In this document: positions 9,301 through 11,788 of the stretch, in pieces
Layout: each line of letters opens with the position of its first letter
Numbering within the stretch: the stretch's first letter is position 1
DNA from: Capitulum mitella
Lineage: Eukaryota; Arthropoda; Thecostraca; Pollicipedomorpha; Pollicipedidae
NCBI GenBank assembly: GCA_030062745.1
Contig: CP099840.1
Coordinates: 310,001 to 374,000, forward strand
Direction of reading: 5' to 3'
DNA length: 64,000 bases
The notes under the pieces: model-generated
What the model was told of the DNA's origin: nothing
What the model saw: the letters and a program-made list of their open reading frames with translations, nothing else
Database searches by the model: none
Made by a program: the position numbers and the translations under genes

Positions 9301-11788
9301 CTTTCCGTCGCCTACTGCAAACAGGCCACATTTGTTCCCTGTTCATCTTACTGGTCTTTTGTCCCACGTACCGGTACCCAACTCCTGTTGGGCACCTGTA
9401 CCTCTCGCTTGTCAGCCATCCACAGATCCCATCTGCTACGTATCTGACGAGCTCGTCTGCCGCTAACCTCCAAGCCCGCACGCTGCCGACCTACTGAGCT
9501 CGTGCATCAGCCGAGCTAGTGCCGACCAGCTACTGAGCTCGACCCGGCCACTTACCAAGCTCATGCCGACCACTTACCGAGCCCGTGACGGACATCTACC
9601 CCGAACTCGTGCCGACATCTTCCCGAGCTCGTGCAGCCCACTTACCGAGCTCGTGCCGACCGCTTATCGAGCTCGTGAAGACCACTTACCTAGCTCGTCC
9701 AGGAAGATGACTGCCGGTGCGGTCATCCTGGCGCGCGTGAAGAGCTCGGTGACGGCCCGCTCCGAGTCGCCCACGTACGGCGAGTACAGCTCGGCCGGCG
9801 TGGCGCTCAGGAAGGCGGCGCGACACTCGGAGGCGGCGGCGCGCACCAGGCTGGTCTTGGCGCAGCCGGGCGGGCCGTGCAGCAGCAGGCCGCGCGGCGC
9901 CGGCACACCGAGCCGGCGGTGAGCGTCCGGCCGCGTCAGCGGCGTCACCAGGCAGCGGCGCAGCCGGTCGCGCAGCGCGCCCACGCCGGCCAGTCGGCTC
10001 CAGGGCAGCGGCGGCAGCGGCGCCGCGCCCGGCCCCGATTTGAGCGCCGACGGCCGGATCACCAGCAGGGCGCGAAAGAAGTCGGCCTGTGTCAGCGACG
10101 CGCTCTGCCGAGGGTGCACGGCCGTCAGAGCCTCCCTAGAGTAGAGGCGGCGACGGACGGCGCGGGGTGCGCCGACTTCGCCACCATCGAAAACATCATA
10201 TGGACGACCATACTGCGTACGCTGTGATAACCAAATATCAAGCAACGACATTCGACGACCAATTTGCAACGTTGCCATCATCCATTAGTAAACATGCAGA
10301 CAACTGAAGACAAATGGACGATGACGAAAGACCAACATTCTTTTCAACGACAAAGTCTGGAATAAACATTATCAGCAGCGTCTCAGACATGGCTTACGTC
10401 TGGTAAAGCGCAGCCTGCCCTGACCTGGTCCTGACGCTGGAAGACGGCCTCGCGGCAGAGGGAGCGCAGGTCGGCCACCGAGTAGCCGGGCGTCACGTCG
10501 GCCAGCTGCTGCACCGAACAGTCGGCCAGGGTGCGGCCCGACAGGTAGTATTCCAGGTGCTCCACGCGGTCCGACGCGTCTCCGACAGTCAGGTGCAGCT
10601 ACCGACCAATCATCAGCTATCAGTGTGTCCCGCGCGAGGAACTGGCAGCGATTCGCCGAGCCATATAAGTCGGATTGCGTCATGACCATCTTTGACTATC
10701 TTCCTGCGGTATCAAATGACTATCTTTCTGCGATAGCACTCCATTTCTCCACGTCTGGACCATACAGCTTCACCAGCCCCACCCACCTCCGTGTCGAAGC
10801 GTGCCGCGCTGCGCAGCGCCGGCGGCAGGTCGGCCGGCCGGCTGCTGGTCGCCACGGCCACCGTCCGCGGCCAGCTGCGCACGTCGTCCAGCAACTGCAG
10901 CAGCTGCGCCAGCGGCGCGCCGGCCACCGAGTCCACGGCGCGCAGCAGCAGCAGCAGCGGGCCGCAGCTGGCGAAGCGGCGCGCCTCGGCGAAGCGGCGA
11001 CGCAGCTCGCTCTCGGCAGCACCGGGCCGCTCGCCGGGTAGGTCGTCGCAGCGCAGCGTCAGAGCCAGCGCGCCGGCGACGGCCGCCGTCGCGCGCGCCA
11101 GGGTCGCCTTACCGCAGCCGGCCGGCCCCAGCAGCAGCAAGCTGGAGGAGCGCTCCGACTGCAGGCGGCAGAAGTGGCGCACCACCGACGTGAGGCGCGC
11201 GCGCGCCGCGGCGTGCCCGCCGGTCGGCAGTCGCTCCGCGGCGAACTCGGCGTGCTGCCGCGTCAGGACGGCGGCCACCGTCAGGCGCGTGTCGGCGTCG
11301 GCCTCGCCCAGCTGGCCGCCGCCGTCCGGCCACGTCACCTCCAGGTGACTGACGCCCAGCCGGCGGCCGAGCGGGCTGGCGGCGCAGCTGACGCGGCAGC
11401 GGGTGGACAGGCCGCGGCCGACCAGCAGGCCGCGGACGGCACGCTCGGCCGGCCGCCGCCGCAGCCGCAACACCGCCTCCACCGAGTCGCAGACCACCGT
11501 CACGGCCAGCTCTGCCGGACGGCGCTCGGGGGGCGCGCGGAGCACGGCCGAGCCGGCGGCGTCCACGGCCGTGTCCAGAGAGGTGACGCAGTCGCCCAGC
11601 AGGGCGGTGCCGGGCCGCAGCTCCGGCCGCAGGTACAGCCGACCGACGGTCGCCCGGCGCTCGGCCGTCACGACCACCAGACGGCCCTCGTGCTCGCCCA
11701 GGGAGGCGTGCAGGTCCGAGCTGACAAAACACTTCTGCTCGTCCAGAAATGGCCGCTTGGACTGACGGATCAGCAGTGGTATGTCCAT
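6340..11788 (-). CDS. AFG2B: AAA+ ATPase AFG2B / SPATA5L1-like (6 coding exons)
   Basis: Coding exons in order of transcription: 11788-10787, 10598-10425, 10104-9690, 9028-8919, 7142-7002, 6558-6340 (stop TGA). They join in phase, giving about 686 aa, near the usual SPATA5L1 length of about 750. Residues 1-200 are an N-domain. D1 has Walker A GPAGCGKA (221-228), a Walker B position reading LLLLLRA (278-284) and sensor 1 ATSSRP (313-318). D2 has GPPGCAKT (469-476), VIFLDELD (524-531), VVGATNR (575-581) and LLRPGR (589-594), with a C-terminal [18 protein letters not shown] helical segment. D2 is canonical; D1 lacks catalytic residues. Known family role: with AFG2A in the 55LCC complex, extracting factors during cytoplasmic 60S maturation and chromatin processes. 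The start is preceded at 11797 by a TTTCATTCCAG acceptor, so a non-coding 5' exon is likely; an upstream in-frame ATG at 11815 is the alternative. The last two acceptors and intron 2 borders are inferred from phase. Confidence 0.92.
6850..7030 (-). repeat. Tandem copies of the exon 5/intron 5 splice donor of AFG2B
   Basis: Read on the - strand, the exon 5 end GAGATACTGCAG|GTAATCAC (junction 7002/7001) is followed within 140 bp by three further related segments: GGTACTGCAG|GTAAGC (junction 6956/6955), ATTTTGCG|GGTAATCAC (about 6911) and GAGATACTGCAG|GTAATCGC (junction 6866/6865). The blocks between them (CAGCCGCCAGACC, CAGCCAGACC, CAGCTACCAAACC) are also related, so this is a degenerate tandem array of about 33-57 bp units. 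Using the second or fourth donor would add 46 or 136 nt, both shifting the frame. Confidence 0.8.
7595..8797 (+). repeat. TTAA-flanked element, family P1, copy 1 (inside AFG2B intron 4)
   Basis: Begins after TTAA at 7591-7594 with CCCAAGCCCGACTAG and ends CCCCCAGTCGGGGGTGGG followed by CTAA, a mutated TTAA. It is homologous along its length to 49360-50563 (shared blocks include GGTCGCACGATAAAAAT, TTTACGCCCT, GACCTGACCTCAG and AGCTGGAAGTCATTGATAC). No transposase frame is present. It lies wholly within intron 4 of AFG2B (8918-7143), so that intron grew by transposon insertion. Confidence 0.75.
9430..9698 (-). repeat. 22-bp minisatellite made of the AFG2B exon 3 splice donor
   Basis: The exon 3/intron 3 junction on the - strand is ACGAGCTAG|GTAAGTGGTC (9690/9689). 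From there into the intron come about nine more units of mostly 22 bp (boundaries near 9677, 9655, 9633, 9611, 9587, 9565, 9543, 9521, 9504, 9482), with fainter units to about 9430. Each carries a version of the junction: GAGCTCG|GTAAGTGG in units 9633-9654 and 9565-9586 (GGGCTCG variant), GAGCTTG|GTAAGTGG in 9543-9564, with others decayed to ATAAGC, GAAGAT or GTAGCT. Four units keep a perfect GTAAGT. The exonic half of the unit encodes the DEL of the D2 Walker B motif. Confidence 0.88.

Follow-up and report, generated by a model that had tools for sequence, protein, structure and literature searches.

A minisatellite of splice-donor copies at the start of intron 3 of an AFG2-type gene in the barnacle Capitulum mitella, and similar arrays at other exon ends of its genome

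We analysed a window of 64,000 nucleotides of Capitulum mitella (the whole stretch, positions 310,001 to 374,000 of contig CP099840.1), to which all coordinates given without a contig name refer. A gene supported as an AFG2-type AAA-ATPase lies on its minus strand, and the features around the junction of exon 3 and intron 3 are the following:

9690..10110, minus strand: exon 3, 3′ part (D2 Walker A to Walker B), open frame ending in VIFLDEL + G; Pfam AAA 2.3e-17; PDB matches AFG2A, AFG2B and VCP
9029..9689, minus strand: intron 3, 661 nt, GTAAGT...CTTTTCAG, with the reading frame restored across the junction
8919..9028, minus strand: exon 4, start at 9028 placed by frame, end near 8919 suggested by GTGGGT
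9435..9698, minus strand: minisatellite, about 12 units mostly of 22 nt, each joining exon end and intron start; unit 1 is the junction itself (TRF, hand parse, shuffles, self-match only in the genome)
9684..9689, minus strand: native donor TAG|GTAAGT, matrix score 11.0, U1 duplex -11.6 kcal/mol
9664..9666, minus strand: in-frame TAA in unit 2, retained in the message by any downstream donor
9640..9645, minus strand: decoy donor TCG|GTAAGT in unit 3, matrix score 8.8, U1 duplex -10.4 kcal/mol
9572..9577, minus strand: decoy donor TCG|GTAAGT in unit 6, matrix score 8.8, U1 duplex -10.4 kcal/mol
9550..9555, minus strand: decoy donor TTG|GTAAGT in unit 7, matrix score 9.0, U1 duplex -10.2 kcal/mol

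The assignment to the AFG2-type AAA-ATPases is backed by the Pfam AAA match and the PDB matches to AFG2A, AFG2B and VCP; four of the five gene pieces scanned have AAA-family Pfam matches. In the protein comparison the gene scores 371 bits with AFG2A and 360 bits with AFG2B, and the D2 exon alone scores 175.7 and 170.6 bits, respectively, in the PDB search; as these values are nearly equal, AFG2B is a plausible, not a proven, name. The coordinates given for exon 3 cover its 3′ part. Its 3′ end at 9690 is well supported by the frame (VIFLDEL + G|AC) and by the AAA-domain matches: on the minus strand the exon ends GTC ATC TTC CTG GAC GAG CTA G, the acceptor at 9029 reads CTTTTCAG|ACGCC, exon 4 starts at 9028 with AC GCC ATA GTC, and the split codon G|AC restores the D2 Walker B motif and the residues following it. 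The nearest paralogue of the D2 exon (C9:16719720-16720826, 44% identity) shares one open frame of 805 amino acids with a second AAA match, which suggests that it has no intron at the corresponding position.

Intron 3 opens with the minisatellite. TRF reports it at 9511-9698 (period 22, 8.5 copies, score 176); relative to the end of exon 3 this array spans -9 to +178, that is, it begins in the exon and extends into the intron. When the 360-nt region was shuffled 100 times with dinucleotides preserved, TRF scores reached at most 51, with a mean of 11. An 18-mer core with at most three mismatches has seven matches in the window, all inside 9487-9699, against 0.04 expected. Parsed by hand from 9698 to 9435, the array consists of 12 units of 22, 22, 22, 22, 24, 22, 22, 22, 17, 24, 23 and 22 nt, the final ones heavily decayed. 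The unit comprises the last 9 nt of exon 3 and 13 nt of intron 3 (first unit ACGAGCTAG|GTAAGTGGTCTTC, consensus ACGAGCTCG|GTAAGTGGTCGGC). The initial annotation had described a minisatellite at this junction, with units that copy the exon end and the intron start and carry D2 Walker B coding sequence, and the TRF score, the frame and the hand parse all agree with this. Its count of four perfect GTAAGT also holds: they occur in four of the 12 units, at the native position 9689 and at 9645, 9577 and 9555. Its reading of the exon end as GAGCTCG was mistaken (exon 3 ends in GAGCTAG), and of the statement that the exonic half of the unit encodes Walker B the coding content stands and the 'half' does not, about 9 of the 22 nt being exonic. 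The RNA folding of the array is only mildly unusual (z -2.0), and the window has no hit in an Rfam or a tRNA scan. Other minisatellites of the window are located at 37659-37933, 44021-44440, 48209-48645 and 57856-58038 (units of 29, 35, 38 and 40 bp); by eye, their edges lie at no evident exon.

Donors were scored with a primate matrix, here applied to a barnacle. On this scale and by U1 duplex energy the native donor is stronger than the three decoys, because it has an exonic A at -2 and these three do not. The window holds 7359 GT sites, and the decoys score in the top 0.3-0.5% of them. Splicing at 9645, 9577 or 9555 would lengthen the message by 44, 112 or 134 nt and not, as had been proposed, by multiples of about 22 nt, because of indels. 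The TAA at 9666-9664 precedes every downstream donor, so that use of any of them would give a premature stop, in line with the truncated message predicted by the initial annotation. Within the array the donor core is kept at 34/42 positions and the rest of the unit at 109/126 (p=0.45, few units), and decay of core and linker without a detectable difference fits drift.

These figures bear on regulated unproductive splicing, in which the weaker donors would compete for U1, the TAA-bearing fraction would be degraded and the number of units would tune AFG2 output. The GTAAGT retained in three decoys, their high rank among the GT sites of the window and the TAA kept by all downstream donors would suit such a function. 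However, the decoys are weaker than the native donor, their cores are, in the few units available, kept no better than the rest of the unit, and the same layout is repeated at unrelated genes (see below), a recurrence that indicates a mutational cause. We therefore consider regulation of this kind unlikely.

The genome was searched for three donor words in succession, which gave 20 places for GGTAAGT and 736 for GGTGAGT. Among the GGTGAGT matches listed, 21 arrays are found on contig C1 and on contig C2 up to 33.72 Mb, and 19 of these were read; the pair left out (C1:42955731 and C2:13522816) has a unit common to both. In seven of the 19 arrays a homologue-supported protein reaches the first unit. 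These loci, a more weakly supported one, an array on the acceptor side of an exon and the one homology-supported GGTAAGT array are:

L054: end of a V-ATPase B exon, homology-supported
L056: end of a TSP1/SEMA5-like exon, homology-supported
L057: end of a VMAT exon, homology-supported
L058: end of a dynein heavy chain exon, homology-supported
L059: end of a sushi exon, homology-supported
L060: end of a Dor1/COG8 exon, homology-supported
L066: end of a myosin head exon, E 2e-7, yet below Pfam's cut-off
L052: ERM, E 0.0017, weakly supported exon end
L063: C2:3395000-3398000, opposite strand, minisatellite with GTGAGT adjoining a CH-domain (spectrin-like) exon on its acceptor side
L004: C5:27002102-27005167, chitin-deacetylase exon with 30-bp junction units, PDB 5zns, E 2.3e-7

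In six of the seven supported loci the homology ends at most 3 residues from the exon end, and in L059 at most 19. In L054 and L057 the first GGTGAGT is preceded, at a distance of one unit, by the donor of the exon itself (GTGGGT and GTAAGT, respectively). Five further arrays (L055, L061, L062, L068 and L070) have a similar layout, no credible homologue having been found for them, and another five (L053, L064, L065, L067 and L069) were not assigned to an exon end. With L063 as a candidate, 3′ splice sites may bear junction arrays as well. Concerning the 20 GGTAAGT places, two (L004 and L005) are one chitin-deacetylase array, nine are one dispersed element, five are one array (L007-L011) and three are simple-sequence (L015, L016 and L018); L003 has a similar junction layout by reading alone. 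Several copies in L004 match the strength of its native donor, and readthrough meets no stop within 300 nt. The L004 exon is flanked by two minisatellites, the 30-bp donor units downstream and units of about 16 bp just before the acceptor.

Besides AFG2, the layout is thus present at eight homology-supported loci. When TRF arrays were anchored on the exon end, the array was found to start 2-30 nt inside the exon and to end 60-1525 nt into the intron at 15 loci, AFG2 included. By the same primate matrix, some copy is at least as strong as the native donor in 13 of the 14 loci scored, AFG2 being the exception; of 13 loci read through, 12 have a stop no more than 300 nt past the donor. Donor cores pooled over 11 arrays are kept at 1029/1076 positions against 4190/4586 for the rest; as intact donor words were what led to 10 of the 11 arrays, this is not taken to indicate selection.

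Concerning its origin, the AFG2 array most likely grew in place: searched against the 477-Mb genome of 16 contigs, the 264-nt array has itself as its sole match at E <= 0.001 in a search that passes over simple and very common words, and an exact search places the 15-mer GAGCTCGGTAAGTGG at a single position. Viral contigs contain no exact copy of a 21-mer of the unit. The initial annotation had named a unit pre-existing at unrelated loci as the finding that would speak against a junction origin, and these searches returned no such unit. A pre-existing dispersed sequence was rejected on the same grounds, with a partial resemblance to one element remaining. This element (L002, L006, L012-L014, L017 and L019-L021) has three GGTAAGT at spacings of 22 and 28 nt and has two 12-mers in common with the AFG2 unit. 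If the units derived from it and not from the exon junction, the alignment of three units to a 57-nt stretch of the element would be explained; it scores 37, whereas 300 shuffled units reach at most 29 and 21 other loci at most 23, and with the three GGTAAGT of the element fixed only 14 of 5000 flank shuffles align equally well. The element was, however, chosen for having three GGTAAGT, after inspection of several families; a BLAST comparison of three of its copies with the window gives no match at the array, even with E up to 10, and the agreement of the units with the exon at 8 of 9 exonic positions would have to be due to chance. We regard derivation from the element as very improbable; the resemblance itself may reflect homology or chance. 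Elsewhere in the window, 7585-7943 (within the AFG2 gene region) and 49400-49750 are 77% and 78% identical to sequence flanking L021, and 23017-24030 is 82% identical to sequence flanking L012; these are dispersed repeats.

The array had also been proposed to be a fossil of intron gain, that is, of tandem duplication of an AGGT-containing stretch. Such a mechanism has been published (PMC2891723, PMC4974935, PMC3443670), a junction-spanning tandem duplication does exist here, and the native unit reads AGGT. The remaining three GTAAGT units, however, read CGGT or TGGT, and in two far, decayed units AGGT stands at a different place (GT at 9490 and 9467). The acceptor CTTTTCAG|ACGCC lies outside the repeat and neither it nor the start of exon 4 has a repeat copy, all seven core matches being in 9487-9699; moreover, other loci have the identical layout at ordinary exon ends. 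The proposal thus does not agree with the decoys or the acceptor, and we hold it to be scarcely credible.

The recurrence of the layout was compared with control words and control arrays. Frames open up to the first GGTGAGT (33) match eight Pfam families, assigned to six loci, and 18 frames taken about 400 nt past the last donor match no Pfam family. The number of triplet matches is 736 for GGTGAGT, 685 for GTGAGGT (inflated by long arrays), 294 for TGAGTGG (partly GGTGAGTGG) and 238 for TGGAGTG; with narrower gaps, GGTAAGT gives 20 triplets and its reversed word 31. Counted by eye on C1 and on C2 up to 14.8 Mb, there are 18 arrays for GGTGAGT, 13 for GTGAGGT and 11 for TGAGTGG. An enrichment of donor words in arrays is not claimed, as the control words yield almost as many arrays.

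A codon model trained on 2010 nt of the AFG2-type gene, with the threshold at the 95% level of the background, was then applied to array flanks. For the donor arrays it is positive in 11/19 upstream flanks (donor strand) and 5/19 downstream flanks (either strand; p=0.029), and for the control arrays in 10/20 and 7/20 (either strand; p=0.50); the upstream flanks of the donor arrays differ from all control flanks with p=0.011. The model misses L066 despite its homology-supported exon. The 20 control arrays were picked by hand as having no preceding GG, and at least one (L082) holds GTGAGT anyway. By this model the control arrays likewise adjoin coding-like sequence. We conclude from these sequence comparisons that the genome is rich in gene-associated minisatellites which recurrently include exon-intron junctions; given the control words and control arrays, we do not conclude that junctions are favoured sites of seeding.

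The AFG2 array is probably best read as a junction minisatellite that is neutral, in a genome rich in minisatellites; the first donor would be used and the copies mostly ignored. As the sequence shows, a 22-nt stretch straddling the junction of exon 3 and intron 3 was duplicated in tandem and the exon kept its sense, the copies probably having been added on the intron side; they then decayed in donor core and linker alike, as far as the small sample allows. The native donor at 9689 would be used because it is the first in the row, borders the true exon and has the strongest U1 pairing, and splicing there would thus be favoured by position and strength both. If a copy were used now and then, the resulting message would carry an early TAA and output would fall slightly. 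The array would then be one instance of a recurrent accident in a genome of this kind.

At the other loci, a copy at least as strong as the native donor in 13 of 14 cases means that strength alone would not explain use of the first donor; with strong copies and early stops, position must as a rule decide in favour of the first donor if the genes are to work. A broader reading, which we regard as doubtful, is that junctions recurrently seed minisatellites and so form a class of introns that open with about 3 to 55 copies of their own donor, often of native strength, in which donor choice would be based on position and copy number would act as a rheostat of unproductive splicing. The layout at the eight loci besides AFG2 belongs to the observed part of this reading; the positional rule and the rheostat are conjecture.

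The choice of the spliceosome among nearly identical donors in a row is an open question, and human factor VII provides a natural test case for it. The present genome has several natural donor arrays whose exon ends are recognisable, with some copies scoring above the native donor, so that ordinary RNA reads could tell whether the first donor wins whatever the strength and number of the others. Such arrays would also lead gene annotation to call false alternative donors. Our searches of openly licensed PMC papers brought up no account of a genome in which introns of this kind are numerous, which is a weak negative.

Related cases are known. In human factor VII (F7), the boundary of exon 7 and intron 7 has 37-bp repeats, with the native donor in the first repeat and further donors in the following ones; normally only the most upstream donor is used, and use of downstream donors leads to non-functional products (PMC6627357). 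The AFG2 array resembles this arrangement in that a series of homologous, donor-bearing repeats begins with the one that holds the native donor; it differs in its 22-nt units, stronger decay and copies weaker than the native donor, and it is known from the sequence of one assembly. With the published AGGT intron gain (PMC2891723) it has in common a tandem duplication containing a splice-site motif, and it differs in having intact donor units beyond the native one that lack AG|GT and no repeat-derived acceptor. For human segmental-duplication genes, De Grassi and Ciccarelli (2009) describe exon-intron boundaries at which repeats of about 30 bp alter splicing (PMC2812944); those are differences between recent paralogues with transcripts, whereas the AFG2 array is known from sequence and implies no new intron. 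The AFG2 array joins the known boundary repeats of F7 and of human duplicated genes (PMC2812944).
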